Positions 1,297 to 63,190 of a DNA stretch of 64,000 nucleotides are shown piece after piece. The notes under the pieces are model-generated. The model made no database searches and was not told the origin of the DNA. It saw only the letters and a list, made by a program, of their open reading frames with translations. Numbering within the stretch: position 1 is the first letter of the stretch; each line of letters opens with the position of its first letter. The position numbers were made by a program, and so were the translations under genes. The DNA lies in contig QEYB01000821.1 in NCBI GenBank assembly GCA_017562135.1, forward strand, positions 1-64,000, given 5' to 3'. This DNA is from Dipylidium caninum (Eukaryota > Platyhelminthes > Cestoda > Cyclophyllidea > Dipylidiidae).

Positions 1297-2066
1297 CTAA
1301 GTGAGTCGACAAGTGGCACTTAAGTGGATGAATTAAACCACCTCACAACTTTCCTCCGAATACTCTCTCCTTGTGATATGCCAACGACTCATCTAAGACT
1401 GCATCCAGCAAACCGTATTTTCGAGCCTTGTGTACGGAGACCGCTTGCGATGACTTATTCACTCGAAGAATGCTTTGAATTCAAAAGCCCTTATGACGTA
1501 GGCACCACGGACCACTCTGTGGAGGTAAGAATGTAGTAAGGGTGAAAAATGAGTTTACTTTAGGCGACAATTACCTGTGAATTTTTTTGAGTTATAAGAA
1601 ACGAGGGCAAAAGGAAAGATTTCATATTTTGACACCTTAAATTTTCATACTCCCGATCAGCCGCAACTACTTTACTCAGAGTAGTCTTCTACCATGCACT
1701 CCCCAAATCTGCTAACAAATACGTTTTCCGTTTGCTTCTCCGATCAGCATTGTCCTGAAAAATTTTTTTTTTTTCGTACACGTCAGTACCTCGCCACCTC
1801 ATTATATGCCGATTTTCACTGTCGATGCTTTGTGCTGACAAAATGCTGTGACGCGAAAAGATGCATATTTATGAAGATTGTGTGCATTCAACGGCTGAAG
1901 CACTTGTGCAAAATAAAGAAACACTGAAAATTACTGCCATATATTTGTTGCTGCTCCGGAAACATAGAGTTCAGCTTTAGTCTCATGCAACGTCGGCGGA
2001 ACATGCGAAGAAGGTGAGGTGAGACGAGATAAAGCAGAGAAGATGCGTTACGCGTAAGATGAACAT
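1297..2066 (-). pseudogene. Family A secreted-protein pseudogene (locus 1)
   Basis: Exon 1 starts with an ATG at 2066 and reads as a hydrophobic signal peptide ending in the family pattern Phe-Phe-Ala-Cys. The frame then runs into TGA after about 27 codons; the rest of the exon, recognisable as the Leu-Tyr-Val-Ser segment, is in another frame, so a small indel has occurred. Exon 3 lies at 1516-1297 behind a CAG acceptor. It keeps Arg-Gly-Ala-Tyr-Val-Ile but has a stop shortly after and further frame changes. Its length is 220 nt against 223 nt in the intact gene. Exon 2 is not recognisable between them. The weak TATA-like string upstream has no clear consensus. This is a decayed copy in reverse orientation. 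Confidence 0.65.
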
Positions 2067-3084
2067 TTTTTGCTGAACTCTGCCTTCACGGAGGCCTCTT
2101 TCACTCACTCTCACACACTAATAAAGAGCTTTGCAGAAAAGTGTATGCTTCAGCAAGGTGAATGTGCTGGTGTTTGCTTACGCTGTGTTGAACACAGAGA
2201 CAATGGAAACTAGTTTTTACCAGAAATTTAGAGTGCTGACCAACTTTGATGGTCAAATTAAACTAACCACCATTTCACCTGACATATATTTCTCCACCAA
2301 ATAAAACAAAAACGCGGACCTATTTAGTGCAGGGTAAACTCTGTACAATGATCAGTCGCCAAAACAAAATCTCTATATCAACGTGAGATGATTCTTTCAG
2401 ATTGATAGTAATTCACATCTTCCCTCAAAATACTGTATATTCTCGTTCCAATAAAGGAACACGTAGCAGCAATTTTCATAAACATCATGACACTTACACC
2501 ATCCTTTTTTATTTTTGAAAAGCAGAGGATGTAAAACACTCAAATTGACCCTTTTGTTGATGGGGCATAACGGTTTTGTAGGCCCACGAAGGCACTAGTG
2601 AGATGGGATTAATGAAAGATCGAAATTGCAGTACTTATCATGAAGAGAATATTCGTCTGCGTAGGTGGTGTATTCGAAATCTTCTCAAAAGCCCAGCGAA
2701 TGACATTCGAGCTCGTTCGCTCTATTAAACTTCAATTGTGGACAAGGGAGAAATTGGGCAAAACGAGTTAGGAAAGGTGTTTTAGTTAGCCTTATGCATT
2801 GAAGGGGCCAAAGAGGATCAACGGTTTTCGTTACAGAGGAGAATTTGGAACAGGCAAGAGAAAGCGACACAGGAGACGAATGAAGCATGTTAAAGTGGCC
2901 ATTAGGAAGGCTATCGGTGGCGAAGCCTGGAAATTTGCCAGTCTGCGCCATTTCTGCCCACTTATACTTGTCTACATTGTTTGCCCGTTAATGCGTTTTT
3001 CCGGGACATGGTAGGCACTTGCAAGAGTAGTACATTAACCCTTGCTTTCCCGTTTTTTTTTTCTGCTGGCCAGGTAAATTCCTT
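2067..3084. other. Family A 5'-flank remnant and unannotated DNA
   Basis: About 2140-2300 matches the upstream region shared by other family A loci, for example 35880-36040 and 42780-42900, with a conserved stretch about a gene-distal GTGCTGGTGTTTGC string. The rest to 3084 shows no supported exon. The open frames at 2685-2951 and 2799-3014 look like chance reading frames. Confidence 0.4.
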
Positions 3085-3620
3085 TTCAGCAGAGCACCTG
3101 GCCTACAAGGCTTTGAGGAGCATGTTGATCGACGATATGCCAGAACACGGTACTTACCCGCCGTTTTAGGGTAATCCGAGTGTAGGACCATTCGACTGGG
3201 GTTGATGAAGATAGTCAGTTGTTTCAAATTTCAGCACCAGTTGCGGGACTTTCCTTTGACCTTGTTCACAGCACTCGGGAGTCTCAAGGCAGTGTCGCCC
3301 AAATTAACTACAATTTCATCCTGCATTGCATCACATCTTCAACCGGCTAGTCGCCTCGCCTACCTGATTAAAGCATTTTGAATCCCAGGAATATTTCGAG
3401 TTGACAGGTCGTTGCACAGGTGTCTGTTCTTGAGCTAAGGAACTATCAAGTGCTGGATAGAGTCACTGATGTGTCGTTGGCAATTCTCAATGTGAGCATT
3501 AGAGTGAAAGTGCCGGTGGGTTTAACTTTATCCAATTTCAAATTTCCGCTTTGTCGACTCACTGGTATGATTAATGCCCTACCTTACTTCGCATTGTCCG
3601 TAGCATCCGTACTTCAATAA
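3085..3620 (+). pseudogene. Family A exon 2 and exon 3 remnant (locus 2)
   Basis: A CAG acceptor at about 3088 is followed by an exon 2 segment reading His-Leu-Ala-Tyr-Lys-Ala-Leu-Arg-Ser-Met-Leu-Ile, the core helix seen in the copies at 24983 and 52148. It is soon broken by a stop. An exon 3 remnant lies at about 3345-3566. Its first part has an in-frame TGA after the Ala-Tyr-Leu-Ile motif, then it changes frame into a readable stretch (from about 3420) with Val-Ser-Val-Leu-Glu and Tyr-Gln-Val-Leu-Asp-Arg-Val. It closes near the usual Cys-Arg-Leu-Thr end, but the family stop codon is lost. A possible AATAAA lies at 3616. No exon 1 or TATA box is visible upstream. Confidence 0.65.
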
Positions 3621-4122
3621 AGTAGCCTCTCCACACTCCGTGACGGCCACGTTTTCAATGAAAACCCATGTTTTTACGAAGTAACGGCGCAAAACCGTCA
3701 GACGCGATCTGGCTTGAAATCACCAATCGGCCATATGTTAAATGTACATTTCAGTTTGCTTGCAGTGGCCCCATTTCCACGGAAACTGCCATGTATGCGA
3801 CAATCGAGGTTCACCACTGTAAAAAAATAGCTAACTGTGTATCAGTAAGGTCGTGTCCTCCTCCATAGTGTCTTCAAGAAGTGTTGGCGAAATTGGCCTA
3901 ATGGGCAAGACGTCGTCGTTGGGTGATCGTTCCAAGCCTATACGATCCCTTACAAAAAAGTTGGAGAGGGAAAATATGTACAGACAAACGAAAAAGCAGA
4001 CAGATATTTTGTATCCACCAGCTTTTTGTTATATGCACTATGTTTTCCCCTCTGTACAATAGAAGCATGACATTAGTGGATGTTAAGCTAGTTCGATGTA
4101 GGAAGGGGTAGCAATGGAAACA

Positions 4123-9535: not shown

Positions 9536-10082
9536 CTCTTATCTGACAGTTAATCACTGCCCTGTCTAATCGTCGCTCACCATGAGGAACATTGTTCCAT
9601 AAGAAGTTTCGCCACACAATTAGCCCTCATATCTCCACCCCTGGCAGTACACAGCGCACTAAGGAGGAGCAGCTTTTTTTGGAACTGACCCACTGCGGAC
9701 TGACACAGACCACGCTGTCGGCATACCAACATAAATTCTAATTACTCTGCTGAAAAACATACCATGAAATGCCTTGATCTTGGACAGCCATGAAACAGAC
9801 TCCATGATGCAACAGCGCATTCTGACTATGTTTGTCAGAGAGAGAGAGAGAGAGAGGGCATACTGAGGTTAATGAAATAGCTTAATGGAGACAAAATAAG
9901 GGAAATGTTTGTGCGTCACTGAACACAGCCTAAATGAGCGGAGCGTTGGCTGATACCACAGGGCCTTCTTGCGACCTCTGTGAAATGAGCTTGAGTGAAA
10001 GGTCGCCGTTAAAGCGATTGTGGTGAAGAATGTGGGGGTGAATGAAAGAGTATGGCAAGAAGAACAATCATGTGCTTGTTAG

Positions 10083-11560
10083 TGCTCTGCAAGTGGAAGG
10101 TGGTTAAGGATGATCTGTCAAACCATGTGAAATGCCGAATGTATGAAGGGTCCGTACCAGGGGATTTATTACAAACTGTGCAGGCTCTCGTTAGGTCTGT
10201 TGGTGGACCTCAAATTGGTCAAACAAAGTGGGACCTCGATTGCTCTTACTAGAAGATAATTAAAAAAGTGCCACTCGAAGTCCCACCATCGGCTCACATT
10301 GGTACGATAATCTAATGAAATGGTATGCAAAGCACTACCACGCTCACTCTCCTGGTTTAATATGCGTTCCCCTACAGTGCAAAAAGCGATCAGGGAGCAT
10401 AAGGAAAGTATTCATTATTCGAGTCAAAATACAGGTAGCAATTGCTGTCGCGTAGAGATTTCCTGAATACCCACTTCAACATTATTCCATACTCGCCAAC
10501 GTGAGTCCCTGTGAGAACTCTTTGCTCATAAGCTTCAATTGACTATTAAGGGGAAAAAATCATCGGTTGGCCTTGCCTATTAGGCGAGAGCGAGGTCAGT
10601 TTTCGATGAGAAGTATTACATATGAGCAGTGGTAAGTAGACGGGGAGGAACTTCTCATTTTGCTAACGACGAGAGAGTTTATTCGCAAAATAGGAGCACA
10701 GATGTGTTCATGTCAAGTTGAGGGATAGCAAGGCTCCTCACAGACACTGATCTCTTTCGGCAATTTCAACATTCAAACATCGGTGAATTCCAATTCGTTG
10801 AATTCAAGTACAACAATCCGTAAACTGCTGCTGCGTTAAAAGTGGGAATTATAGGAATTCTGCTCCGCGTCTTTAACATAAAAATGCGATTTCACAGAGA
10901 ATTCAGTTGCGCAGATGAAGTTGAGGTTTGCAGCATGTGTTTCTACGTCAGACTGAGGGTTGGCAGGGCTGTTTCAGAGATCCTGACTTCTCGGCATTTC
11001 ATTGTTGAAAGATCGTTTAAGACCAGTACGTTGTCCTCAAACACAACAATCCTTAACTCCCACTTTAAAAGTTGGGATTGCATGACTTTTCCCCAGTCAT
11101 TCACAGGCAAACATGTTGCCACAAAAGTTAATTTGCGAGATGAAGTTGAGGTTGTAGTATGGGTTCTGCGCGCTTACAGGAAGGTGTTTGTGATTCTGTC
11201 CCCTCCACCACTCTGGCACATTTGAAAAAGGTGAAATGAATAAGCCGTTAACACGATCATCCGAGTCACATGCGATTCAACCGCGGTTTCGGCATGAGGT
11301 GTGGTCAAAGAGCGTTTGCCACCGTCTCTCCTTTACTGGGGTGGGGAAAAAATTCCGACAGATCAGCGAGAACCACCAGTCGAAATTAATCGTCAAGCCT
11401 CAGCATACGCTGGTCTCCACTTTCGTGGAAGGTGAGCACTTAATCTTTTCTTCATCCAGGCTTATTTCACTGTAACAAGAGCTGAAGTCGAAGGTCTAGA
11501 AGAGGTAGCCGACAGAGCAACCGCCTTTGCACCATCCACTGATTAAGAAGTACTATTGTC
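10083..11560 (+). pseudogene. Family B multi-exon pseudogene
   Basis: The first exon-like frame (10083-10252) follows a TTGTTAG acceptor. It encodes a stretch with Val-Lys-Cys-Arg, Leu-Gln-Thr-Val-x-Ala-Leu-Val-Arg and Gly-Pro-Gln-x-Gly-Gln, which is also open in the 45760-45590 copy and ends at the same stop position. The next exon, open in the other copy (45516-45235), is here (about 10340-10640) broken by frameshifts and stops, although its GTAAGT donor is retained near 10632. Further exon-like blocks occur at about 11098-11215 and 11280-11427, each before a GT donor. The function is unknown. Broken frames make this a pseudogene. Confidence 0.55.
10705..11165 (+). repeat. Internal tandem duplication in family B copy 1
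   Basis: About 10705-10935 and 10955-11165 are diverged tandem copies. Both run from a GGCTsyTCACAGA-like start through an ACAACAATCC string to a GATGAAGTTGAGGTT string. The copy at 44.3-46.4 kb has only one such block, so the duplication is specific to this copy. Confidence 0.65.
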
Positions 11561-12299
11561 GACTTTTGTGGTTTGGTGAGGTACCCTGCGGAGACAATAA
11601 GCAAACGTGTTGCCATCAAAACAACGCTAAAGCGAAGAAACAAATCTAATTCTGCTGGGCCAACTCCAGACGGGCCTCATTTGCTGCATTACAACCTGGT
11701 CCAATATTTTCCCATCTATAAATGTTGCCGATATCGATTTGGTAATAGCAAGGATTTAGTCAAGAAAACGAGCTGACAGAAGTTCCTAATTTCAGGCAAA
11801 CTTGGAGCGTTGCCTGGAGGTGGCTCGTGTGTAATCCAGCCAACACATCTTCTTCGCTCGAAGATCGCTTAATTCGGTAGTCATTGCATCCACCGCACAC
11901 GAGCGTAGCTTCGGTGCCACGCCTAAAATTGCCATTTCTTGCCAATCAACCAATAAAACTGCAGATTGGCAGCGCGGCAGGCGGTCTGAGGAGACATGAG
12001 AAAAGGTTCTACACTCTGGATATGAGGGCTCCCAGAAGAGTCAATTTGGAAAATGCATCGAACAAGGGGCTCCAAAAGGGCTATTATTGTGGGCTACACA
12101 ACGGGTTCATAGGCTGCTTGGCATCCTTTAGCTAAGACAGGTAATTGACCATGCTCGACGGCGAAAATTGAGGATTTGACTATGTTCACGTTGGGCAGAG
12201 GGTTAGTGCTGAGTTCCTTTCATAGGCAAAACCATCTCACCAGTCACATAATGAGGAGCCAGAGCAGATCAGCCGCGCAGATTGTGCGTGCACAGAAAG

Positions 12300-12560
12300 A
12301 CGATGTAATATATTGCCCTAGAGCCTGCTAATTGGCAACTTGAAAATGGTGTGGGCTCCGTTGTCATTCTGCAAGAAATTAAAAACGATCGAAGAGAATG
12401 TGATCATTTGTCAGTAAATATGCCGAAATATAATTACCGCACCAGCCACATAATACTTCGTGTAGGTGTGCCGAATTTAATTAAAACGGTATTTCCAGAA
12501 ATACCAAATAGGCTGATATTTTGAGGGGAGCAGGGAGGGGGGGGGGTGGGGGGGGGGGGG
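12300..12560 (-). pseudogene. Family A subtype E remnant (exon 3 with GAH motif)
   Basis: Read on the minus strand, a Phe-rich leader-like segment at about 12530-12430 is followed by a TTTCTTGCAG acceptor and the words Asn-Asp-Asn-Gly-Ala-His-Thr-Ile. These match the start of exon 3 in the intact gene at 48824 (Asn-Gly-Ala-Tyr-Thr-Ile). The frame is lost soon after. The partner arm at 17060-17420 carries the same remnant on the + strand, and related copies lie at 21444-21910 (+) and 26241-25860 (-). Confidence 0.5.
12537..12560 (+). repeat. Poly-G tract
   Basis: Two long G runs are interrupted by a single T. No match to this tract is seen in the otherwise similar right arm, so it appears to be a local expansion or a sequencing-prone homopolymer. 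Confidence 0.85.
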
Positions 12561-13456: not shown

Positions 13457-14188
13457 CTAAACCAGTCGACATGCTGCACTTGAAATGGAGGAATTAACGG
13501 CCAACACACAATTCCTTCGAATGCTCTCCTTGAGATTTGCCTAAGACACATCTTCAACTCTATTAACCACTTGATATTTCTTAGCTTAGAGCACAGTGAT
13601 TTTTTCACACCAATGACTTATCAACTCGAATAGTCCTGTAACTCAAATGCCTCGATGATGTGTAGCACCGTGGTGTATTGTGCTGGAAAAGAGCAGAATG
13701 AAGGGCGCAAAATAGGTCAGGAACATTACCTTTGGCCTCTTTTGGCAGGCAGGACGAGGTCCAAGATGATTCGTTTTCCATACCATTGAAATTTTCAAAA
13801 CTCAACCGACACTTCACGACAACATCGGGCAAGAATTATCCACTAATTGGAGTTTCCTCAAATTGTAGTCAATGTCGGTTCTGGGTATGTCTCCAATCAG
13901 CATACTCCTGAAGTCTTCGTAGGCTAAGTGCTGCAATTTTTCAATACGTCTTGAGCCCCACTGGCGATGCTTCAATTGGCTGACAAGGTAACTGTGTGAC
14001 GAGAGAGGTGCGCATCGTTTAAGGGTTGAATACAATGCAGTAGATGAAGCGTCAGGCGATGCAATGGAAAGATAAGAAATTACCTGCGCCCTCTGGAAGT
14101 GGTGACATAAATTGTCGCGCGCGTGTCACTCACGAATGTAGGTAGGAGGTGAGGAGGCGAGTAGATAGGCTGTCACGAAAATCAACAT
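13457..14188 (-). pseudogene. Family A secreted-protein pseudogene (locus 3), three exons
   Basis: All three exons keep recognisable splice sites: exon 1 at 14188-14084 with a GTAATTT donor, exon 2 at about 13991-13730 with a GTAATG donor, and exon 3 at 13682-13457 after a TTCCAG acceptor. Exon 1 begins Met-Leu-Ile-Phe-Val-Thr-Ala-Tyr-Leu-Leu. One G is missing compared with the copies at 24723 and 22859, so the signal peptide runs into TGA. Exon 2 keeps the helix with Phe-Arg-Ser-Met-Leu-Ile-Gly but then degenerates, and exon 3 is frameshifted at the Gly-Ala-Tyr motif. It is inactive, but intact enough to show gene structure. Confidence 0.75.
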
Positions 14189-21443: not shown

Positions 21444-21910
21444 ATGGTGGCCTATTTGGTATCTTTTTGGGTTTCTGGAAATGCCACACCTACACGAACA
21501 TCTTTTATGGCTGATGCGGTGATAATTTGCGAATTTCACGACTATGGAGGTGTAAGTACTGACAAAAGGATAGCATATATTGTCTGGTTAATGATCACTC
21601 ACAGAATGATAATGGAGCCTACACCATCCACGTTACCATTTCGGAGGATCTAGCAATACAATACATCATCTGGCCAAGAATCTGGAATGGGAACAAGGAA
21701 TTACACGGTGCAGGACACCATCTCCATGCGCTTTTTAACTTGTCGGAAGGAGACGCTGCAAACGGTTATTTTGAGGACTTGTAAGAATTTCGTATATGCG
21801 ACTCCTGCAGAGTGAGCCAAGGACCCCACCAACTGATCGGAAAGCCACCTGCCCCCGAATTGTTCATCGTTTCTCCACATTAAACGAGCATTGTGTTGCA
21901 AATTGTCGAT
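21444..21910 (+). pseudogene. Family A pseudogene, subtype E (exons 1 and 3 only)
   Basis: An ATG at 21444 opens a short leader ending at a GTAAGT donor (about 21552). A CACTCACAG acceptor leads to Asn-Asp-Asn-Gly-Ala-Tyr-Thr-Ile at 21605. Spliced in phase 0 this would read 95 aa to a TAA at 21782. The conserved Asn-Tyr-Thr-Val-Gln-Asp-Thr segment and the downstream Arg-Lys-Glu-Thr helix are in a different frame and end at TGA about 30 codons later, so the ancestral exon 3 is frameshifted. Exon 2 is missing. A short product is possible but unlikely to be functional. Confidence 0.55.
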
Positions 21911-22114
21911 GAGCGGCTTGGCGTGGCCTTGTCGAGAACTGGTGTGGGCTGTCTTGACGCTGTTAGCAAGGCGGTTCGCAGATTTTGGTGTTACCCAAAT
22001 AACGCGGAGTTCCGGACAAATACAGTCAATATTCCACATGTAATTACTGCTTTATTGCTACAGAGGTACCATAGAAAAGCGGTGCCGTGAGACGCGTGTC
22101 AGGGAAGAGACATT

Positions 22115-22859
22115 CTAAACCAGTCGACATGAGGCATTTGAAATGGAGAAATTAAAGGTCAGCACAACATTCCTTCGAATGCTCTCCTTGAGAGTTGTCA
22201 AAGACTTATCTTCAACACTATCCAACACCTGGTAGTTCGTAGCTTCGAGCACAGTGACCTCACCCAATGACTTATCAACTTCAAATAGTCCACAAAAAAT
22301 GCCTCGATGTTATAGGCGCCGCGGAATAGGATGCTAGAGAAGGGAAGGATTGAAAAGCGCAAAATATGCCACTGTTAGAGAACATTACCTGCGACACATT
22401 TCAGCAGACTGGATGAGATCAAAGCTGAGCCGTTCTCCTACCACTGAAATTATGAACTCCCGACCCTCCACATCAACGTCGTGCAGAACGGTCCTCCAGC
22501 TGGATTTCCCCAAATCGGCAATCAAATGTCGTGTTCTGGGTATTTCGCCTATCAACATGCTCCTGAAAGTCTCGTAGACCAAGTGCTTCGCAATTCTCAT
22601 TATGTCTTGGACTCAGTAGCGATGGTCGGTGGCTGACATGGTGCTGTTTGGTGAGAGAGATGAATCGTGTGAGAATCGTATACAATGAAGTGAGCGAGGC
22701 ATCAGGTGAGGGGATGAAATTTACGCAAGTACCCGTGAGCACTCTGGAGGTGGAAACATAGACTGTCGAGCGCGTGTCACTCTTCCGGTTGGAGCATGCG
22801 AAGACGGTGAAGTGGGAGGTGAGGAGGCCGAGTAGATGGGCTGTCAGGAAGATCAACAT
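22115..22859 (-). pseudogene. Family A secreted-protein pseudogene (locus 4), palindrome partner
   Basis: Exons: 22859-22733 (127 nt), 22643-22389 (255 nt) and 22333-22115 (219 nt). All splice sites are present, with introns of 89 and 55 bp. Exon 1 is a complete signal peptide beginning Met-Leu-Ile-Phe-Leu-Thr-Ala-His and ending Phe-Ala-Cys. Exon 2 lacks one C in the Thr-Glu-Ser codon run, a base present in the partner at 24939, so a TAA follows almost at once. The rest of exon 2 is open and in correct phase for exon 3. Exon 3 lacks four bases after the Gly-Ala-Tyr motif, a second frameshift, then reads through to a Cys-Arg-Leu-Val stop. It cannot make the full protein. Confidence 0.85.
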
Positions 22860-23413
22860 TGTGCAGACGTCTGCATTCACAAAGGCCTCCTCCAATCCGC
22901 CTCACTTATATAGGCCATAAGAGAAAGTGTATTGATTCAGCTGGGTCAGCAGTGTGGGTGTGTGCTGGTGTGTGTTCACGCCATAACCCAACTTAGCGAC
23001 AGTGGAAACTACTTGATGGAACACAAATACTGGTACCAACTACCTTTGATGACCTCCTAAACATGTCCCCAATTTTGGGCCTTGTTTTAGAGTGTGGTCG
23101 GTGCTTTGCCACGGAGGTGAACGCGAGTCCAAGCGAGTCCATTTGGTGGCGTCACTTCTGTTGCCGCAATTAGGAGAACGAGCAGCCTGGTTTATTGCTC
23201 AGAAATATCTTCCTCTAAATTTACTTAAGAAATCCCTACGATGTTTAGTGCAGGATTTCCCCAGATCCACCTAGATTGCTTCACTCAACACTCCGTGTCG
23301 ACATTTCGCATCCACTTCTTGCTGCCATCGTCATTCAAATTGGCTCAGTTTCCATAACTAACTTTGCTTCTCCTACTTTTCTCCTCCCTTATTACAGCAC
23401 CGAATGTTCTACC
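22430..23413 (-). repeat. Near-perfect palindrome, left arm
   Basis: Inverted copy of 24172-25155. Blocks of 60 bases compared by eye are identical or differ by one base or one single-base indel across promoter, exon 1, intron 1 and most of exon 2. Outside this interval, toward exon 3, similarity drops to the ordinary level between family members. The boundary at about 22430 falls inside exon 2. Confidence 0.9.
22905..22912 (-). promoter_or_regulatory. TATA box of locus 4
   Basis: Reads TATATAAG on the minus strand, beginning 53 nt before the ATG at 22859. It lies in the near-identical part of the palindrome, so the partner has the same box. Confidence 0.7.
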
Positions 23414-23544
23414 CGTTACGCCTCTGCACTCGCTGGGAATGTATCGAATGTCGCGGACTGTATCACATTACTCGAGGGCTTCCACTCACATGGTCGCCTC
23501 CTCAGTTTAATATCCTGCTTGGACGCACAGTAATTTGGAGTAAA

Positions 23545-23720
23545 ACAATTTAAGTAGATCTGAGGAAATGCTCCAGTACATATAGTGGAATTCCTTAAAC
23601 AAATTTAGGGCAACTATTTCCGAGAGCACAACAGGCTGCTCATTCTCCTAATTGAGCTGACAGTAGGGTCATATAGACTCTCGCTCACCTCCATGGCATC
23701 TGCCATCATACTTGTGTGTC
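23545..23720 (+). promoter_or_regulatory. Diverged family A upstream block in palindrome spacer
   Basis: Resembles, in + orientation, the upstream block seen at 24300-24460 and 31690-31830, with shared strings around GCTGCTCATTCTCCTAATTG and CTCACCTCCATGGCA. It lies before the exon-3-like frame at 23765, but no TATA box or exon 1 follows it. Confidence 0.45.
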
Positions 23721-23764
23721 TACCTCAGGTAACCACTTTTACTGATCCCTTTCTTCCCCTTTAG

Positions 23765-24082
23765 TTGTGTCAAATTCGCAATCACAAAGTCGTCTCACTG
23801 AAATACAGGGATCGCATTAGATATAATGGGGACGAAGGAGTATTCACGATGGTGAAAACCCGGGACCAGGAAATTGCAGAAGTTTTTGTTGGATACCAGC
23901 AGTCAGTTGAGGAGACAAGCATCCGCGAAAACCGCGTAGCTTCCTTCACTTCGGCTTTGCGCAATGCCACTTGTCAAGTGCGTCAAACATTTCGTCTGAC
24001 TCGTCGGCTGGTGCTGGCTTTACCTACTAGTGAATTTGCTCAGAACTCTGGGGAAAAGAAGCTGTTTAATCTTTCTGAGTGA
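23765..24082 (+). CDS. Family A exon 3, subtype C (isolated exon)
   Basis: A pyrimidine-rich TTAG acceptor is followed by a 105-codon open frame. It aligns over its first 70 residues with exon 3 of the intact gene: an aromatic strand, then Arg-Tyr-Asn-Gly-Asp-Glu-Gly-Val-Phe, then a Glu-Glu-Thr helix, and a Cys near residue 73 (Ala-Thr-Cys-Gln-Val). In this copy the frame continues another 30 residues to TGA. A second copy at 59395-59597 keeps most of the reading frame. No exon 1 or 2 of this subtype is found nearby, and the exon sits alone in the palindrome spacer. It may be a remnant that kept its frame by chance, or an exon used by an unseen distant start. Confidence 0.45.
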   Translation: MCQIRNHKVVSLKYRDRIRYNGDEGVFTMVKTRDQEIAEVFVGYQQSVEETSIRENRVASFTSALRNATCQVRQTFRLTRRLVLALPTSEFAQNSGEKKLFNLSE

Positions 24083-24171
24083 AGTTGAATAGCCTTGTAG
24101 AGCACGATGCGATAGAGTGCAGGTAGACATCAAATGGGCTGGGAGGAAGTCAACTTCCACCATGTTGTAGT

Positions 24172-25155
24172 AGAACATTCGGTGCTGTAATAAGGGAGGA
24201 GAAAAGTATGAGAAGCAAAGTTAGTTATGGAAACTGAGTCAATTTGAATGACGATGGCAGCAAGAAGTGGATGCGAAATGTCGACACGGAGTGTTGACTG
24301 AAGCAATCTAGGTGGATCTGGGGAAATCCTGCACTAAACATCGTAGGGAATTTCTTAAGTAAATTTAGAGGAAGATATTTCTGAGCAATAAACCAGGCTG
24401 CTCGTTCTCCTAATTGCGGCAACAGAAGTGACGCCACCAATGGACTCGCTTGGACTCGCGTTCACCTCCGTGGCAAAGCACCGACCACACTCTAAAACAA
24501 GGCCCAAAATTGGGGACATGTTTAGGAGGTCATCAAAGGTAGTTGGTACCAGTATTTGTGTTCCATCAAGTAGTTTCCACTGTCGCTAAGTTGGGTTATG
24601 GCGTGAACACACACCAGCACACACCCACACTGCTGACCCAGCTGAATCAATACACTTTCTCTTATGGCCTATATAAGTGAGGCGGATTGGAGGAGGCCTT
24701 TGTGAATGCAGACGTCTGCACAATGTTGATCTTCCTGACAGCCCATCTACTCGGCCTCCTCACCTCCCACTTCACCGTCTTCGCATGCTCCAACCGGAAG
24801 AGTGACACGCGCTCGACAGTCTATGCTTCCACCTCCAGAGTGCTCACGGGTACTTGCGTAAATTTCATCCCCTCACCTGATGCCTCGCTCACTTCATTGT
24901 ATACGATTCTCACACGATTCATCTCTCTCACCAAACAGCACCATGTCAGCCACCGACCATCGCTACTGAGTCCCAAGACATAATGAGAATTGCGAAGCAC
25001 TTGGTCTACGAGACTTTCAGGAGCATGTTGATAGGCGAAATACCCAGAACACGACATTTGATTGCCGATTTGGGGAAATCCAGCTGGAGGACCGTTCTGC
25101 ACGACGTTGATGTGGAGGGTCGGGAGTTCATAATTTCAGTGGTAGGAGAACGGCT
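24172..25155 (+). repeat. Near-perfect palindrome, right arm
   Basis: Inverted partner of 22430-23413, separated from it by 758 bases of unrelated arrangement. It holds the promoter, exon 1, intron 1 and most of exon 2 of locus 5. The very low divergence, against strong divergence of every other copy in the window, implies recent duplication or gene conversion. Confidence 0.9.
24670..24676 (+). promoter_or_regulatory. TATA box of locus 5
   Basis: TATATAA begins 53 nt upstream of the ATG at 24723. With typical initiation about 30 nt downstream of a TATA box, the 5' UTR would be only about 20-25 nt. Confidence 0.75.
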
Positions 25156-25471
25156 TATTTTGACCTTATCCTGTCTGCTCAAAAGAGTCAAAGGTAATAT
25201 TCTCTAACGGAGGCATATTTTGTGCCTTTCAATCCTTCTCTTCTCCAGCATCATATTCCGTGGCGCCTACATCATCGAGGCATTTGAGTTGACAGGATTA
25301 TTTCGAGTTGATAAGTCATTGGGTGAGGTCTCCGTGCTCGAGGCAAAGAACTACAGTGTCTTGGACAGAGTTGAAGATAAGTCTTTGGCAAATCTGAAGG
25401 AGAACATTCGAAGGAATGTTGTGCTCACCTTTAATTCGTCCCTTTCAAGTGCCGCTTGTCCACTCGCTTAG
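24723..25471 (+). pseudogene. Family A secreted-protein gene (locus 5), one base short
   Basis: Exons: 24723-24849 (127 nt, phase 1), 24939-25193 (255 nt) and 25249-25471 (223 nt, stop TAG). Introns are 89 and 55 bp with GT-AG ends. Exon 1 is a signal peptide with likely cleavage before the Cys of Val-Phe-Ala-Cys. Exon 2 starts Ala-Pro-Cys-Gln-Pro-Pro and contains the helix with Arg-Ser-Met-Leu-Ile-Gly. Exon 3 is fully open, with Arg-Gly-Ala-Tyr-Ile-Ile, Tyr-Ser-Val-Leu-Asp and a terminal Cys. Exon 2 is one base shorter than in the intact gene, and the missing base is near 25155, where the partner at 22430 has an extra base. As spliced, the frame shifts on entering exon 3 and stops at 25290-25292, giving about 141 aa. 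It could be a recent pseudogene, a truncated secreted protein or an assembly error. Confidence 0.8.
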
Positions 25472-25529
25472 AATGTCTCCTCCTTAACTCGCGTTTCAAG
25501 GCTCCGCATTTCTGTTGCATCTCTATCGC

Positions 25530-25535
25530 AATAAA
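25530..25535 (+). terminator. Polyadenylation signal of locus 5
   Basis: AATAAA 59 nt after the TAG at 25471. Comparable signals lie 60 nt after the stop of locus 9 (32545-32550) and 62 nt after that of the intact gene (AGTAAA, 49108). Confidence 0.6.
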
Positions 25536-25859
25536 GCAACACTTCCATGTGAAATATCGGCTTTCATTCTGTGGAACTCAGCATTCTTTGGGGGAAACGG
25601 TGGAATCTACCAGACACGAACCGCCTTCCGCGGAGCTGCAGTCTACTGCAACGTTAAGCTAACGCCGTCAAGGCAACTCACACCAATTCTCGCCAAGTTG
25701 ACCTTCTGCCACGTTCTGGAATTGGTCACGCAGAGCCGTCGTCAGAGAGTGAGGTGTTAGTAATATGGCACTTCTCAACACAGTGCTCCTTTGATTTGGA
25801 GAAAGGGTGAACAACGTGGTGTCTGTAGGCTTTCAGTTCATTTGATTGGATCCTTGAGT

Positions 25860-26241
25860 CACACTGCCGGAGGCAGGTAAGTGAAAGTCTTACAAGTCCT
25901 CAAAATAGCCGTTGGCAGCGTCTCTTTCGGACAGGGCAAATCGTTCTGGAGATCGTGCCCTTCACCGCGCGATTCCTTGCTCGCATTTCGGGAACCCACT
26001 CACATGAGGTATTATATTGCTAGAGCCTGCCAAGTAGTAACTGGAAGATGATGTAGGCTCCATTGCAATTCTGCGAGAGATTAGATGCGGTACGAGAACT
26101 GCCATCCTTTGTCCGTACTTCACCTACACAATTGTGAAAGTAGCAAAATATGACCGCATCAGCCTTAAAACACCTTCGTGTTGGTGTAGTATTTGCAGAA
26201 ACCTTCAAAGGTACCAGATAGGCCAAGAAACAAGCCGACAT
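25860..26241 (-). pseudogene. Family A pseudogene, subtype E
   Basis: The minus-strand ATG at 26241 follows the same GAGAAACCA-TCCTCT leader as the intact gene (48.3 kb). It opens Met-Ser-Ala-Cys-Phe-Leu-Ala-Tyr-Leu, comparable to Met-Ser-Ala-His-Leu-Val-Ala-Cys-Leu there. A TCTCTCGCAG acceptor precedes Asn-Cys-Asn-Gly-Ala-Tyr-Ile-Ile, then a stop (TAG, about 26020). The conserved later part of exon 3 is still recognisable out of frame to about 25860. Exon 2 is absent. The long minus-strand frame across this locus includes the intron and is not evidence of a larger protein. Confidence 0.55.
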
Positions 26242-26600: not shown

Positions 26601-26802
26601 AGCCGACCTAGTCAGTCAGCGAATCCGCAGCAGAACGCGACATTGCCAATGCGCGTATACTCCCATGCAAGTGTCCACGGTTAGCCGCCAACTTCGCCTT
26701 TTGCCACCGCAACCGCTTCCTCTTTTGCTCTTCTCTCCTCATATAATTTAAGCTTTCCGCCTAGAACTATGTCAACCTGCTAATATCACTCATTTGGCCC
26801 AG

Positions 26803-27034
26803 GATATTATGAGTCTTGTTGACCACTTGGTGCTGTCAACTCTCCCCCTACTTGACAGTTGAAGATCCTGGCCTTAACAGATACTGGCGGTTAAATGCCG
26901 ACAAAATTGAATGGCAAACTACGCTGCTGGACGACAAAACCGCAAGCGAGCGGAGTGGCATTTCTGTGAGAGGCAAACACATCCCTGTCAGTAGCACTCA
27001 AATTTTGGACCTTAGCGATGTTGCGAGACATTAG
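26803..27034 (+). pseudogene. Family A exon 2, diverged (subtype F)
   Basis: A GGCCCAG acceptor is followed by Asp-Ile-Met-Ser-Leu-Val-Asp-His-Leu-Val, matching Asp-Ile-Met-Arg-Ile-Ala-Lys-His-Leu-Val of locus 5. After a frame change, a long open stretch contains Trp-Gln-Thr-Thr-Leu-Leu and Gly-Ile-Ser-Val-Arg-Gly. This aligns with Trp-Arg-Thr-Val-Leu-His and Ile-Ile-Ser-Val-Val-Gly of locus 5, and it runs to a TAG at 27032. One frameshift separates the two halves. No exon 1 or 3 is recognised nearby. Confidence 0.5.
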
Positions 27035-29055: not shown

Positions 29056-29275
29056 AGTGTCTCGTGGCGCCTAAATTATCGAGGCATTTGAATTCACTGG
29101 AGCCTTTCACTTTGATAACTCGTTGTGTAAGGTGTCTGTGCTCAGAGTTTGGAACCACAGTGTGTTGGACGGAGTGGCACATGTGTCGCTGACATAGGAT
29201 AGGGAGAGCATTCGGAAGACTGTTGTGAAGGGTATCAATGCAGCCATCTCCAATGCCGATTGTCAACTCACCTAG
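29056..29275 (+). pseudogene. Family A exon 3 pseudo-exon (locus 7)
   Basis: A TTAACAG acceptor is followed by 220 nt ending in Cys-Gln-Leu-Thr-TAG. Nearly all residues align with locus 5. The codon for Tyr in the Gly-Ala-Tyr motif is TAA (29072-29074), and a second stop interrupts the later helix. The same Tyr-to-stop change is present at 56726-56728. No exon 1 or 2 was found upstream, so this is an orphan remnant. Confidence 0.7.
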
Positions 29276-46089: not shown

Positions 46090-46395
46090 TGTTGACCTGC
46101 GCCAAAGCGTGGTCTCTGTCAGTCTGCAGCGGGTCAATTTCACCAAATCTACTTTCCGTTATCCGCTAATTTCCACTTGTGCACCGTCAAGTGGGGCGAT
46201 ATGAGGGCTCATTGCGCGGTGAAACTCCTCGTTGGCCCTCTCTCTATCACACAGCGTGGTCTCTGCCAGTCCGCAGTGGGTTAATTACACAAGGTCTTCT
46301 CCTCGTTAGCCGCTAATTTCCCCTTGTGTACTGTCAATGGGGGCGATATGAGGGCTAGTCGCGCGGTGAAACTCCTTGTGGAACAGTGTCCTAAT
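46090..46395 (+). repeat. Tandem duplication, about 145-bp unit
   Basis: Two copies with GCGTGGTCTCTG, CAGTCYGCAG, CGCTAATTTCC, GGGGCGATATGAGGGCT and GCGCGGTGAAACTCCT. The inverted family B copy at 9540-9720 has only one unit, so the duplication is specific to this copy. Confidence 0.8.
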
Positions 46396-46600: not shown

Positions 46601-46769
46601 GGCTTTCGTCAGTCCTTCTACTCCTACCGCCACACCGGCACACATTCCGCACAAGTGACACCTACCGTTCCAACATTAACTGAAGCTTCCGCCACTTTCC
46701 AGACTTTCGATTGTAGCCTCACAGATCAGGCGGGTCTCCTTGCGTACCGCATTAGGGTGAGCACGAAAT

Positions 46770-47999
46770 GTGAGTTTTAAAACTGCTCCCTATACCACTT
46801 CACACTGTCTACTTTTGGTAGGACAAAAAGGATACTGGAAACCGCTTTTGCACGGTATACGTCCAAGTCCCGATCGCAGATACCTTGCCCGATTAACAAG
46901 TTCAGTCGCTGTCCGTGGTGTGATGAAAGAACACAGGACAGCAGCACGCATTGCCGAACCCAAATGTTGCCTCCAATGTGTGTTTCAGTGAGTATGAATG
47001 AGACGGACTTTTACGAATTAGAGCCACTTCGAAGTGGCAATCAACTGAATGGCCGCCTCACCTGGCCTCCTCCCTTCCTCTGTCACCGTTCCCGATTGCT
47101 TCACAGCGTCGCATGCAACTCAATCGACGCCTCTTCTTCCTCTTTCCGCCTCTTCTCTGCATAAAGTTAACTTCGCACCATTTTTTCCGCGTGATGCAGA
47201 ACACAATTGTTGCGTCGTCTGCTCTCTGTACTTACCGAAAAATTGCCGCTATAAATAAGGAAATGACGAGGTTTTTCGGGGCACTTGGCGCATGAATGAA
47301 ACCTCCAAATACACTCTCAGTGAGGTAGGCGTCCATGAAGATTATTTGTCAGTATCTGAAGCAATAGAGGTCAGTAATTGGAGGAGTCGTCTTAATGATA
47401 ACTCCTCGAACTTCCTCACCGGCATCCGACCATGAGGGTCGAAGTGTGTGTACATAGTTGGTATTGTGTCTGCAGAAAATCCTAAAACAAAAGGAGACCC
47501 TTTATTCCGAAGTGGTGGGCACTTGTTGAAGAATTATAAATAATTGTGGCATGAGTGAAGTAGAAAGGGAGGAAGCTCGGAGGGCGAGAGCGAATTTCGA
47601 ATCGTAGTGTGGTGGTGTGCGGTTGAAACGAACGTGTCATTGAATCAACAGCTCAACGTGAACTTAACGTTTCATTAGCGTAAATCGTCGAAATCGTCGA
47701 AATCGAGCCCATTTTCGGTGAGGATGAAGAAGGTGTGTCTCAACCATTGTTAAAACTTTACCAGCTCGTACCTGCCAATAGTGGATTCCTACAGCAACGC
47801 ATGCATTCCTGCCCCATTCGATGCCACTTGCTGGTCCACTTGTTGGAGGACAGCATGGCGTACTGCCTTGCCTCGGTGGCGTGTCCAGTCTACCAAGAGC
47901 GCTCAGTAGTCGTTTACGTGGGCACCCTCTTCGTTTATTTGCACCAGCTAATTCTCCACGCATAGGGGCTCTAGACCTCCCGTCACGAGATTGGCAAGG
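46770..47999. other. No gene supported
   Basis: Several open frames overlap on both strands (for example 47664-47963 - and 47821-48114 +). None has a recognisable motif or copy. The stretch after about 48000 is the duplicated 5' flank of the intact gene. Confidence 0.35.
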
Positions 48000-48264: not shown

Positions 48265-48272
48265 TATATAAA
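48265..48272 (+). promoter_or_regulatory. TATA box of the intact family A gene
   Basis: TATATAAA beginning 54 nt before the ATG at 48319. The sequence around and upstream is shared with the subtype E pseudogenes at 21444 and 26241. Confidence 0.8.
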
Positions 48273-48318: not shown

Positions 48319-49046
48319 ATGTCGGCTCATTTGGTAGCCTGTCTGCTAGCTTTGCTGCCTTGTCTTGTCAGTGTTATTGCCTGCTGCACAAAGCCACTCG
48401 AGACAGAATTGATGCTGCCCGTGAACAACAGTCAAGTACCCACAGGTTACCTCCTTTGCCTCATTCTCCCCCACCACATCCGTTTAGTTTGCCAATGTGT
48501 CTCATGTCTTTCAGGACTGTGTAGACCGTCGAAGATTGTTGATTATCAACATGATGTCTCCAGCATCATCGAGTCTCTGATCTTCAGATTTCTCCGCCAC
48601 ATGCTGATAGAGGGCAATGTAAATGAACCCGTTTGGTGGACTAATTTGAAAAACGCCGCCTCGAAGATCGCATTGGTCAATGCCGTGCCGACAAACGAGA
48701 CGGTTGAGTTTACCACACTTCTCGAAAGGCTGTCTTTTAATTTCTTCATACCAAACGACATAAATCTCGAGTAAGTTCTGATAAACTGATCGTATTTGGC
48801 GTCTTCTCTCTTGTCTCTCCCAGGCGTTTTAATGGTGCTTATACCATTCTCCAATGGCGGTTCAGCGGGCTATTGCAATATAACGCCTCGTCAGGCGAGG
48901 TTTCTATTAGGAGTACTTGGAACCACACGGTGCAGGATACAGTCGCCATGAACTATTTCTTCGATCACGAGGAAACAATGCGAATGGCAATTTTGCGCAA
49001 GTTTAAGAAGTCCATTTCAGATGAATCCTGTCGTGTGATCCAGTGA
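48319..49046 (+). CDS. Intact family A gene: 201-aa predicted secreted glycoprotein (locus 14)
   Basis: Exons: 48319-48445 (127 nt), 48515-48770 (256 nt) and 48824-49046 (223 nt), with introns of 69 and 53 bp and phases 1 and 2. Splice sites are CAG/GTTACC with TTTCAG, and CGA/GTAAGT with CTCCCAG. Residues 1-21 form a signal peptide, with cleavage probably before Cys22-Cys23. Cys45 and Cys197 match the conserved Cys of other copies and could form a disulfide. Four N-glycosylation sequons occur at Asn36, 103, 148 and 161. Residues 54-76 look like an amphipathic helix. The stretch 105-165 alternates like beta strands and contains Asn-Gly-Ala-Tyr-Thr-Ile (131-136). A helix follows at 175-190. 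No membrane segment follows the signal peptide and no GPI signal is evident. I recognise no family. The frame is uninterrupted across intron 1 because its 69 bp are open, so intron retention would add 23 hydrophobic residues. Confidence 0.85.
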
Positions 49047-51591: not shown

Positions 51592-52530
51592 CGCCCAATC
51601 GTCGGCCACCGTGGCACCCTATCTGCTCAGCCGTCTGACCACGAACATCACCGTCGAAGTCATCTAGTGACTATGACTCTCTAAAGGTAGCCAAACGCCT
51701 CGTCATCTAATTGGTACGGACCTGGGCGCCTCCCCTTGGCGACCGCCGGGGTGGGTGGTTAGCCCTTCCAGCTAATACCTAGGTCACTCCCCGGGGATCA
51801 CAGTGCGGCTGTGAGGTTGAGGTCTCTGCCTCAGTATTCCTCTTTGGCTAGTCATTGTGTTCCGTTTAGTTGCGGCACCTAGTAGTCATTTGGACCGGTG
51901 TTTATTGAAGTAGCCTCGCTCACATCATCCCATCCGCCGTCGTCATCATCAATCATCTGACTCCTACTTTGATGCTGACTTCTTGGTCTCAACTGAGGAT
52001 ACAATTCTATCCCCACTGAAGCCTGTTCCCCATCGGTCTGTGTCGATGCTTTCGTTAAGGCTCTTGATGTCTCTATCTGCCTCAGGGTGAACGAGGGCTG
52101 GTTGGCGAAGGTCGACCGTCGCCACTGAGTCCCAAAACGTAAGGAGAGTGGCGAAGCACTTGGCCTACTTGACATGCCGGAGCATATTAGTCGAGGGACG
52201 TATAAGAAAGGGATATTTGTTTAATGCACCGGAGAAACTCAAGTGGGAGATTACTCTGCGCGAAATTGTTGTGGATGGAGGATTGTATAAAATTCCAGTG
52301 ATAGGAAATCGGCTTCTCTTTGAACCATCGAGTCTGTTCACCAGAGTCATGGGCAATGTTTCCTGACATGGGCCTTCTTTTCTCTAACTGAGTGCGCCGC
52401 GGCGTCCGATGTCACCAGATGTGTCTTTGGCAAGTCTCAAAAAGACCATTCGAAGGAAGCTTGTGGTGGGTTTTAATTCATTCATTTCAAGTGATGTTTG
52501 TCGACTCACCTGGACTGACTGCTGTCTAAC
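51592..52530 (+). pseudogene. Family A pseudogene interrupted by an insertion (locus 16)
   Basis: The exon 1 remnant (51592-51667) has lost its ATG but shows the family pattern Tyr-Leu-Leu-Ser-Arg-Leu-Thr before a stop. Exon 2 (about 52120-52362) is open, with Val-Ala-Lys-His-Leu-Ala-Tyr, Trp-Glu-Ile-Thr-Leu-Arg and Pro-Val-Ile-Gly-Asn-Arg-Leu, but lacks its acceptor, and its donor reads GGGCAATG (GC instead of GT). Exon 3 is only the second half (about 52405-52510), ending Asp-Val-Cys-Arg-Leu-Thr with the stop codon lost. The TATA box is also lost. This copy kept exactly the exon 2 that locus 9 lost. Confidence 0.7.
51705..52110 (-). mobile_element. Insertion carrying a coding-like 3' end
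   Basis: Absent from the corresponding intron 1 of loci 4, 5 and 9. On the minus strand the frame ending at TAG 51879-51881 is not low-complexity. It is Ser/Thr/Gln-rich, then has an acidic Ile-Asp-Asp-Asp-Asp-Gly-Gly-Trp-Asp-Asp segment and ends Asn-Thr-Gly-Pro-Asn-Asp-Tyr. It resembles the C-terminus of a structural or regulatory protein. The remaining 175 bases are GC-richer, with CCCCGGGGA and CCACCCCGGCGG strings unlike the neighbourhood. It may be a retrocopy fragment or the 3' part of a retroelement. I saw no target-site duplication, poly-A or terminal repeats, so the type is unproven. Confidence 0.35.
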
Positions 52531-59370: not shown

Positions 59371-59379
59371 CCTTCGGTT

Positions 59380-59597
59380 GCGTACGCTTTCGCAGTCACG
59401 AAGTCGTCTCATTTAAATACAGGGGTCGCATCCGCTATAATAGGGACGAAGGAGTATTCTCGATGGTAAAGACCTGGGGCCGTGAAATGGCATATCAGCA
59501 GTCAGTTGAAGAGACAAGTATCCGAAAGGACATCGTAGCTGCCTTCACTTCGGCTATGCGCATTGCCACTTGTCGAGTGTGTCAAACAAGAAATTAG
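59380..59597 (+). pseudogene. Family A exon 3, subtype C, second copy
   Basis: Close copy of 23765-23990. The frame is kept from Ser-His-Glu-Val-Val-Ser through Gly-Val-Phe-Ser-Met-Val-Lys-Thr and the Glu-Glu-Thr helix to Ala-Thr-Cys-Arg-Val. It lacks about six codons in the middle and ends earlier at TAG. The AG acceptor of the 23.7 kb copy reads CG here (TTCGGTTG vs TTTAGTTG), so it could not be spliced in the same way. Confidence 0.5.
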
Positions 59598-60310: not shown

Positions 60311-61290
60311 GCAAAGCGCATCTGAAAACGGCATTGAACAGAGCGTGTAGAGCCGTAAATAGAAATGAGATGAGTAGGGGTGAACTCGTAGCCCAATTTG
60401 ACCTACAGAGTTTCGTACAAATTTTGGACATCCTGTACCCCCCTTTCTACAATACGTGTCACTTTTCCCATTGTCCTTGTCACCTTAACCATGTGGTCAG
60501 GGAAAAAGTGGGAAATCGGGAAAGGCTCACATGGAGGTAGTTATCAATGGACTGCCCGCTGATCCACGGGTCGGTCAAGTTCATGCTTTGCGATTCACAG
60601 GGGCAGAAGCGTGCCGTTACTACGGCATGCCATAAGTTGCGGGAGGGGAAGACGGAAGACGGAGATGCGAGGTAAAAGGCTTTGTTGTGAGGAGGTGGAA
60701 GAGTGGAGAGATGTGCTGCATTTCTGCGGTCGGTGGATGGGTCGAAAGGGGATAAGCATGGTTCGCATATTAAGCCGGTGGAGAAAAACACAAGTCGACG
60801 AGCAGTTGGAAGCACAACATTGAGAGGCAGGAGAAGCATGGAGTCATCAACAGACCTTACTGAGTTCGAGCGGAGATCATCACTCCCGATGTGGCCTACT
60901 TCAGCATTTGACATCAAACAATCTCCTCCAATGCTCCCAGACATCAGATAGACTTTTCCATATTCGGATACCAAAATGTAAGGGTGTATTACTTTGAGAA
61001 GGCGGTAAATATGGAAAATTTGTGCTCATAAACAGATTGGTGAGAAGAAGGGGGTTTTCTGAGCTACCACCTACTTCCACTCTGTTAAGCCGTAAGCTTC
61101 GAGAGAGCGAGGATTCAGCGTTTGCGTGTGTTTGCATGACGCCTAGTAGGGGTAGGTTTTAGTTTCGCTTCCACCTTGACCTCACGGAGTGAGTTGATAC
61201 CTCACCGGGGATTGCGAGTCCCCTAATAAATGCTTTGTGTTACGGTCACCACGAGACGAGGACGCATATATTTGATCGCGCTGAGGGTCC
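60310..61290. other. No gene supported
   Basis: Overlapping short frames on both strands (60480-60974 - is the longest). No copies or motifs were recognised. Confidence 0.35.
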
Positions 61291-61299
61291 TCAGATTCA

Positions 61300-61500
61300 T
61301 CAGTCGACTGCGCAACTTGCAGCGATGCGTTGGCATTGCATCGGAGACTCTATTTCTGCCATGCCTTGTAGAAAATATTCATGGGAAACAAATGAAAACC
61401 ACTAAAGGCGTTTAGAAGTATGCCAACATCATCTTAATATTGCTGTATTTGCCACATTAGAGAGCAGGTTGGGGAAGGAGAGAGAAAGACTGGACACAGA
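61300..61500 (+). repeat. Dispersed repeat R5, copy b
   Basis: Partner of 27000-27210. Confidence 0.6.
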
Positions 61501-61946
61501 ATGAATGCTCCTGACTGGATCAGGTAGGTGCCAACCATTCTTCGTGGCCTCCACGCCCTCAAAAGCGCGGTCAATCCCTTGCAGCCACGTAGATGCTCCT
61601 CGTCACACACTGCCAAACTCGATTATCGCCATGCCCATTGTCTTGCTGCTCAAGGTGCCTATGATCAGTCTGGAGGAGGAGACATAGAGTCCTGATTCCG
61701 TCTCGTCCAGCGCCGCTGATTATGAGAACACGGTGAGGAGGCCTACTCGACGATTCTCATCCTCCCCTCTGAGGCAATTCCATTCAGAGTTCCCACTGTC
61801 TCCTTCTTTTCACAACCAGCACATTTTCCGGTAACCCTTACCACCAGGAAATCACCTACAGGTCGACCACTCCTGCTCTATGCTTCATTTGTTCACCCTG
61901 TGCTTTAACAGCCTGATTCGATGACACGCAAAGTTGTGCAATTCAG

Positions 61947-62538
61947 AATCCTGTCAACCGCGGAATTCTGCCTACCCAACTAGTGACATGAGAATTGCAT
62001 GTTACCTAACGCGGGAGGCTATAGTGAATATGGCAATGAGAAATCTCGGAGGCAGTAGATACTTGTGGACCAATGTCAGAAGCGCCGAATGGGGCACATG
62101 ATTACGCCAAATTCAGTCCGGCAACTATGAATATGAGATAATCATACGCGAAAATCGCCTCCATTATAGTTATCTTCATTTCGAAGATCAGCAAATTATA
62201 TATCAAGATCGACGCTCAAACTTCGGAAACACTGTGAAGAGATTGGCGAGAACGACAGATAGATGGCTTTCTTCTCATTTTATAGAACTCTAAACATAAA
62301 TGAACGTCCTTCTTCAGTGAGAAAGAGATTACCCCAGTCGGAATGTAATTTCGAAGTGCGCATCAACTGTCGGTCATTCTCGGTGTATTTCGAGTCTGGC
62401 ATTTTTCACCGTTTCTCCAAAAATATTCTTTTCTGGAAAAAAGCACACTACACGACGGTTAGAGACAGAATTCTTGAGATACAAAAGCTGCCGATAATGC
62501 GAGGCCGGATATCTCGGGTTAGGCAGCATCCAATCTAG
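61947..62538 (+). pseudogene. Family A exon 2 (subtype G) and possible exon 3, one stop
   Basis: An AATTCAG acceptor (AG at 61945-61946) is followed by Ser-Cys-Gln-Pro-Arg and then Asp-Met-Arg-Ile-Ala-Cys-Tyr-Leu, matching Pro-Cys-Gln-Pro-Pro and Ile-Met-Arg-Ile-Ala-Lys-His-Leu of locus 5 with the same spacing. The frame stays open for about 85 residues with a single TGA, probably from an Arg codon CGA, in the Trp-x-Thr-Arg-Leu segment. The usual GT donor is not present at the expected end. A TTTTATAG acceptor near 62283 precedes an open frame with Cys-Asn-Phe-Glu-Val-Arg-Ile-Asn, whose relation to exon 3 is uncertain. This is the most divergent copy that keeps nearly all of exon 2. Confidence 0.5.
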
Positions 62539-63190
62539 GTGAGTCGTCAAGTGATATTTGAGACGGATGAATTGAAACCTACCAAAATTCCCACTCTCTT
62601 GGATATTTGCCAACGACACATCCAGCACATGGTAATTCAAAGTCTTGATTGGGGCGACTTCATGAAAAGGCTTATCCGCTCGACATACTCCTTTGAATGC
62701 GAATGCCTCGAGGGTTTAAAGCCGCGGGTTACGTGGTTAGATATTAGAGGGGAAGAAGGACTGAACGAGTTCGCGCGGAATCTCTTCACTTGTCACTGAC
62801 ATTTCAAACTCGCGACCACCTGCAACTGTACTCAGAAGGGTCCACGATTTGGACTAGCCTAAATCGGCCAGCAAGTGCCATGATCTGGACAGGTCTCCAA
62901 TCAACATGCTACTGAAAGTCTTGTACGCAAAGTGCTCCTCCACGCCCATCATGACGTAGTGCTCGTGGACTATGTACGGTGGCTGACCAAGTGCAGTGTG
63001 TGCCGAGTGAGCTGCATCGTTTCAGGCTGGTAAACAATGCAGTGGGTGAGACTCTTGATGAGGGGCTGGAAGACGGCCAATGTTCCGCAAGCACTCAGGA
63101 GGTGAAAACACAGAGTTCAGTCTCACGAGGCCCCGTTGAACATGCGGAGGGGAGGGAGGTGACGATGCTGAACGAATTGACTATCATGAA
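62520..63190 (-). pseudogene. Family A pseudogene (locus 19), three exons
   Basis: The exon 1 remnant reads Met-Ile-Val-Asn-Ser-Phe-Ser-Ile-Val-Thr-Ser from the ATG near 63187, then Ser-Ala-Cys-Ser-Thr and Glu-Leu-Cys-Val-Phe-Thr-Ser followed by TGA. Exon 2 (about 62945-62790) keeps His-Phe-Ala-Tyr-Lys-Thr-Phe-Ser-Ser-Met-Leu-Ile-Gly-Asp and Gly-Arg-Glu-Phe-Glu-Met-Ser-Val, with one TAG. The exon 3 remnant (62640-62535) has Asn-Tyr-His-Val-Leu-Asp-Val-Ser-Leu-Ala-Asn and then a frameshift. The order and orientation of all three exons are retained. Confidence 0.6.

Follow-up and report, generated by a model that had tools for sequence, protein, structure and literature searches.

The first 64,000 bases of contig C151 of the tapeworm Dipylidium caninum (QEYB01000821.1; 77,205 bases in an assembly of 106 Mb and 920 contigs), hereafter the window, carry an array of genes and gene relics belonging to one family of small proteins, which a sequence-only reading had described first. 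Twenty-three gene models, the window gene not among them, provided one profile per exon, and the window was searched with these profiles after translation in all six frames, stops being read as X. At E ≤ 0.01 they matched 33 stretches of the window (six for exon 1, nine for exon 2 and 18 for exon 3) and nothing in five shuffles that preserved its dinucleotides. By position and strand, these stretches fall into about 18 loci, which are spread over both strands from 1.3 to 63.0 kb; tblastn added a few weaker pieces. The array that had been described is therefore borne out, as is its three-exon anatomy: a hydrophobic exon 1 followed by a phase-1 intron, an exon 2 that starts with C-x-P and precedes a phase-2 intron, and an exon 3 with GAYxI near its start and a cysteine near its end. 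The array does not end at 63.2 kb, where the extent given for it (1297-63190) stops: exon-3 matches continue at 65.3, 65.8 and 74.6 kb of the contig. The earlier reading had thus seen one real gene family, and this family extends far beyond the window.

Gene copies in the window

According to a strict gene finder, the only intact copy is a three-exon gene of 201 codons located at 48319-49046 (+), with a TATA box at 48265-48271 (+), 54 bases upstream of the ATG. Exon 1 (48319-48445, 127 bases, profile E 2.8e-13) encodes a hydrophobic leader and precedes a phase-1 intron. Exon 2 (48515-48770, 256 bases, E 1e-22) opens with G-L-C-R-P and precedes a phase-2 intron, and exon 3 (48824-49046, E 5e-25) runs from RFNGAYTIL to SCRVIQ and the stop. 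Both introns have GT-AG borders and a poly(A)-like signal lies 61 bases past the stop. The same finder proposed a second model near 41 kb, rejected as spurious (score of 0.2 versus 12.2 for the 48.3 kb gene).

The other copies were placed mainly by per-exon profile matches. All three exons are found in the copy at 22121-22859 (-; exon 3 22121-22297, exon 2 22400-22615, exon 1 22734-22859), whose frame is interrupted in exon 3. They are also recognisable in the copy at 24723-25471 (+; exon 1 24723-24848, exon 2 24941-25168, exon 3 25253-25465). The latter had been recommended as a profile source alongside the 48.3 kb gene, but it is not intact, its frame apparently slipping near the end of exon 2 by manual reading. 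Damaged copies occupy 1323-2066 (-; exon 3 pieces in 1323-1515, an exon 2 piece at 1644-1739, exon 1 at 1998-2066), 13463-14188 (-; exon 3 13463-13606, weak exon-1 pieces 14092-14188), 35148-35834 (-; exon 3 35148-35309, exon 1 35709-35834), 52115-52510 (+; exon 2 52115-52324, part of exon 3 52415-52510) and 62608-62985 (-; exon 2 62758-62985, part of exon 3 62608-62715). A partial copy at 32055-32482 (+) consists of exon 1 (32055-32180) and exon 3 (32309-32482), separated by a gap too small for exon 2.

Single-exon relics complete the array. Those of exon 3 lie at 3352-3551 (+; profile and tblastn match), 21636-21785 (+; with a stop that is also present in a near-identical copy on contig C410), 27997-28149 (-; E 1.5e-4), 29057-29272 (+; profile match, two stops) and 46764-46892 (-; E 8e-5). 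Profile matches at 23780-23986 (+) and 59388-59582 (+), the second open within the match, are exon-3 relics of the subfamily of locus L045. Exon-2 relics were found at 26770-27004 (+; profile match in two pieces) and 61952-62191 (+; E 9e-22). Many paralogues thus lie in clusters together with pseudogenes, as in birth-and-death evolution. One gene is intact and the others are partial or interrupted, but the statement that most copies are broken in different ways was too strong, because some of the broken frames may stem from errors of the assembly.

Family members across the genome

Searching the genome with exon 3 of the window gene gave 114 matches at E ≤ 10, and searches with two other members gave at least 183 (150 of 271 candidates scored) and 138 matches. 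The 114 rows of the first search, including its weakest ones (E 0.1-5), were merged with 34 exon-3 rows picked by eye from the other two. This yielded at least 144 distinct exon-3 places on 28 contigs, of which 105 have no stop in the match and 93 of these are at least 180 bases long. The true number of genes is lower than 144 in so far as contigs partly duplicate one another, and may be higher because this count comes from the matches listed. Three loci on three contigs (L017, L018 and L019) are 99.7% alike over 3.2 kb.

The strict finder, applied to 80 loci (L015-L034 and L038-L097), returned 30 models besides two for the window entry. L020, L039 and L049 were discarded as oddly modelled, and L015, L025 and L027 were given the exon ends of an earlier model. 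The 27 open gene models retained, among which L015 is the window gene, collapse to 22 non-redundant ones at 97% identity. The usual layout is a TATA box followed by a leader exon, an exon 2 of 256 bases and an exon 3 of about 210-250 bases, the exons encoding a protein of 188-215 amino acids. The strict finder accepted only models with C-x-[PL], intron phases 1 and 2 and a hydrophobic leader, with a preference for an exon 2 of 256 bases. These features of its output, including the 256 bases found in 27 of 27 models, are therefore not independent evidence. A less biased finder, which was phase-free, accepted an exon 2 of 200-320 bases and used three family proteins for scoring, gave 256 bases with phases 1 and 2 in 19 of 37 modelled loci and another structure in 18, including the window gene. 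The first cysteine is invariant in 29 distinct exon-2 sequences, partly by selection of the models, and the last is retained in at least 90% of 41 distinct exon-3 sequences. The two main subfamilies share about 32% identity in exon 3.

The promoter motif played no part in choosing the models. Of the 27 models, 24 (and 19 of the 22 non-redundant ones) have a TATA-like motif in the 120 bases that precede the ATG, 17 of the 24 at 51-58 bases, versus 3.3% of 5000 random 120-base stretches of the window, which argues that the family consists of genes and not of a mobile repeat.

The family had also been considered fast-evolving, and this is supported. The ratio of nonsynonymous to synonymous substitution rates (dN/dS) of whole genes ranges from 0.30 to 0.99, mostly near 0.5, in the 43 pairs with dS < 0.8 among the 231 pairs of non-redundant genes, pairs that are not independent of one another. 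The median is 0.75 for the leader exon, with values above 1 in 10 of the 43 pairs, and 0.42 and 0.43 for exons 2 and 3, each with a single pair above 1. The pair L015/L017 has a ratio near 1 (0.99), and a GY codon model on a clade of 11 genes gave an omega of 0.63. These values point to relaxed, mainly purifying selection with a fast-evolving leader; neither neutrality nor positive selection follows from them.

Predicted fold and candidate function

Modelled alone, exon 3 is predicted to form two long strands, a helix and a short strand, and exon 2 a helix followed by strands. The best neighbours of the exon 3 model in a structure search were mostly proteins of the tubular lipid-binding (TULIP) superfamily, with weak Z scores (3.7 or less), and the model aligns over nearly its full length with LBP, JHBP, Takeout, YceB, CETP, BPI and BPIFA1. 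This predicted TULIP-like fold is a suggestive new element that was absent from the first reading. For the exon 2 model the search gave a mixed result, with no TULIP protein among the 23 matches listed, a result that, according to the documentation given with the tool, does not count against the fold.

The predicted order of elements (helix, strands, two long strands, closing helix and short strand) would be that of the superfamily, which includes BPI/LBP/CETP, PLUNC, Takeout/JHBP, SMP domains and YceB/DUF1439. There are also several differences. The core of the family is shorter, the structural Z does not exceed 3.7 for halves that were modelled separately, and one cysteine near each end of the mature domain takes the place of the BPI disulfide. 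Furthermore, sequence similarity is undetectable: hmmscan of 13 of the 27 models returned no TULIP family at E ≤ 1, and a profile search of the PDB returned no TULIP chain at E ≤ 10. Accepted TULIPs are themselves reported to be often equally far apart in sequence (PMC6791001).

We propose that the mature protein, with about 155 residues between a cysteine near its start and another near its end, could be a minimal single-domain TULIP module made of a first helix, a beta-meander and a last helix, and possibly closed by a disulfide between the two cysteines. The first helix and strands would be encoded by exon 2, and the pair of long strands with the last helix by exon 3. Such a protein would be secreted at the surface of the parasite and might carry or capture hydrophobic ligands, either host lipids or immune-active lipids. 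Our preferred reading, at about even chances, is that this tapeworm has a family of small and secreted lipid carriers of TULIP-like fold, which evolves by birth and death.

A serious contender, to which we give somewhat less than an even chance, is a tapeworm-specific family of secreted antigens or effectors with an unrelated alpha/beta fold, which would bind host proteins or act as variable surface decoys. The likeness of exon 3 to TULIPs would then reflect a mere hairpin-plus-helix arrangement, common among proteins. However, the top of the structural list comes mostly from one superfamily, and the predicted order of elements agrees with that described for TULIPs (PMC5507252).

If the TULIP-like fold holds, these proteins would amount to a large class of lipid binders, so far overlooked, that tapeworms secrete at the interface with their host. 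They would bear on how lipid-auxotrophic worms get their lipids and on which secreted proteins host immunity meets; the phylum is reported to be unable to make its own lipids (PMC3439653). The full proposal, namely dozens of genes for secreted minimal TULIP lipid carriers, unrelated in sequence to known TULIPs and diversified both through duplication and through exchange of sequence between inverted copies, is tentative and on balance doubtful. If true, it would add a second arsenal for lipid scavenging or lipid signalling to antigen B, a small secreted multigene family of tapeworms that is thought to carry lipids (PMC4358968). Even without the fold, this is a sizeable group of duplicated, secreted-looking genes for which the searches made showed no assigned function.

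Duplication, assembly quality and known tapeworm families

Whole units had been said to be copied with their flanks, and this holds for an inverted duplication at 21994-25592 whose arms (21994-23412 and 24170-25592) carry the 22 kb and 25 kb copies. The arms are 93.5% alike over 1425 columns and differ mostly at the exon-3 end (11-26 differences per 100 columns), being practically identical over nearly 1000 aligned bases that include exon 1 and most of exon 2. An alignment of the two arms on C768, a related contig, has 126 mismatches and 148 gap letters over 1250 columns. The near-identity of the window arms could result from recent exchange (gene conversion) between inverted copies or from assembly collapse. 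The exon profiles found no family exon in two other inverted repeats of the window: a 1.37 kb pair at 9602-10947 and 46229-44910, which is 77% alike and overlaps a 147-base tandem pair at 46106-46376, and a pair at 11875-12441 and 17761-17200, which is 94.6% alike over 574 columns with 134 identical bases running.

It is rather improbable that much of the complexity and decay of the array is an assembly artefact caused by uncollapsed haplotypes and unpolished long reads. The window copy L021 and its counterpart L022 on C410 differ by 11 mismatches and 71 gap letters in 3177 columns, a gap-rich difference that looks like uncorrected long reads. Gaps far outnumber substitutions between near-identical copies, so a frame broken by a single base says little about decay here, and many such breaks may be assembly errors. 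The array order also varies between contigs, through real variation or misassembly. C410 matches the window as far as 23.5 kb, beyond which the 4.2 kb examined contain no further match of at least 88%. In C899 (locus L104), positions 155-569 correspond to window 61213-61627 in inverted orientation and are joined directly to 568-4001, which starts at window 24041; this junction is either a structural variant or a misassembly. The contrast between the window arms and those of C768 likewise fits an artefact. However, missing exons, stops due to substitutions that copies share and the 65-85% identity between units are not explained by read errors, and between 22.3 and 27.0 kb C768 repeats the order of the window. 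Where such arrays are assembled without polishing, the family will be miscounted.

Expanded secreted families are a known kind in helminths, and the searches made matched the present one to no described family. As the earlier reading had stated, no known family was recognised: Pfam gave no useful match for the 13 members scanned, and a sequence search of the PDB gave none. The protein database returned no match for the window gene or for the alignment of the 13 members. The tapeworm control, a single short query of 55 residues from the genome's own Taeniidae-antigen exon, also matched nothing, so this silence says little about novelty. In the titles and opening lines of abstracts on tapeworm genomes, multigene families, gp50, TULIPs and lipid transfer, a description of the family was not met, which is no proof of absence.

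It is improbable that the family is a known expanded antigen family of tapeworms, gp50 above all, or EG95, antigen B or a Kunitz family, or a distant branch of one of them. Antigen B is helical, about 85 residues long and encoded by two exons, and the EG95 and 45W oncosphere antigens are secreted, three-exon proteins whose families include pseudogenes and which have a fibronectin type III domain. Like antigen B and the hydrophobic ligand binding proteins, the present family would consist of small secreted tapeworm proteins in a multigene family, and it shares the three exons, the pseudogenes and possibly secretion with EG95/45W. However, at E ≤ 1 none of the 13 members scanned matched Taeniidae_ag (PF05596), typical of antigen B, or Fn3, typical of EG95, which is termed Fibronectin type III-like (PMC4836691), and no Kunitz domain was found in them by Pfam. 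PF05596 itself was found over its cut-off at five other places of this genome, on C678, C822 and C448, with no match in 14 control genomes (apparently bacterial and archaeal). Those on C822 and C448 score identically and may be a single locus present twice.

The case for gp50 is that it is tapeworm-specific, secreted or exposed at the surface, and extensively duplicated (PMC5036155, PMC4836691), with 34 genome isoforms in E. multilocularis, many of them stage-specific (PMC4836691). On the other side, gp50 is described as glycosylphosphatidylinositol-anchored (PMC5036155), and none of our 27 models has a hydrophobic C-terminal tail, the 12-residue hydropathy of the last 30 residues being at most 1.6 in all of them. 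The anchor is no defining feature of gp50, since it is reported in only one of six highly expressed E. multilocularis isoforms (PMC4836691), and a family that lacks the tail may still belong to gp50. Compared by published description, the gp50 matches of PMC4836691 (33-41% identity, E 1e-43 to 1e-68) suggest proteins longer than those of the present family.

Finally, copies on 28 contigs, in both orientations and often truncated, could suggest that the shared segments belong to a mobile repeat independent of reading frames, an explanation which the sequence-only reading had itself raised, but this is very unlikely given the recurrent exon 2 length and intron phases, the open frames, dN/dS below 1, the TATA box at a similar distance and the lack of any Pfam match at E ≤ 0.1 in ten other long frames of the window.

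A search of the window with Rfam returned nothing. Elsewhere in the assembly, mitochondrial COX1 occurs on three contigs of 18-37 kb (C637:11341-12672 and 24888-25928; C471:20657-21989 and 34733-35335; C261:15584-16549). On C637, COX1 reads through with TGA as Trp and resembles that of a tapeworm, and a second, stop-laden match lies about 13.5 kb past the first. Either nuclear copies or a concatemer of mitochondrial DNA containing read errors could explain this repetition. An exon of triosephosphate isomerase is closest to PDB entry 6oog, from Taenia solium, with 180.6 bits versus 142.4 for the next entry; like COX1 and PF05596, it marks the source as a tapeworm. Moreover, four TTAGGG units gave 5545 matches in the genome, forming interrupted runs, for example on C239 and C273 among about 100 places listed; degenerate telomere-like arrays are common in this assembly.

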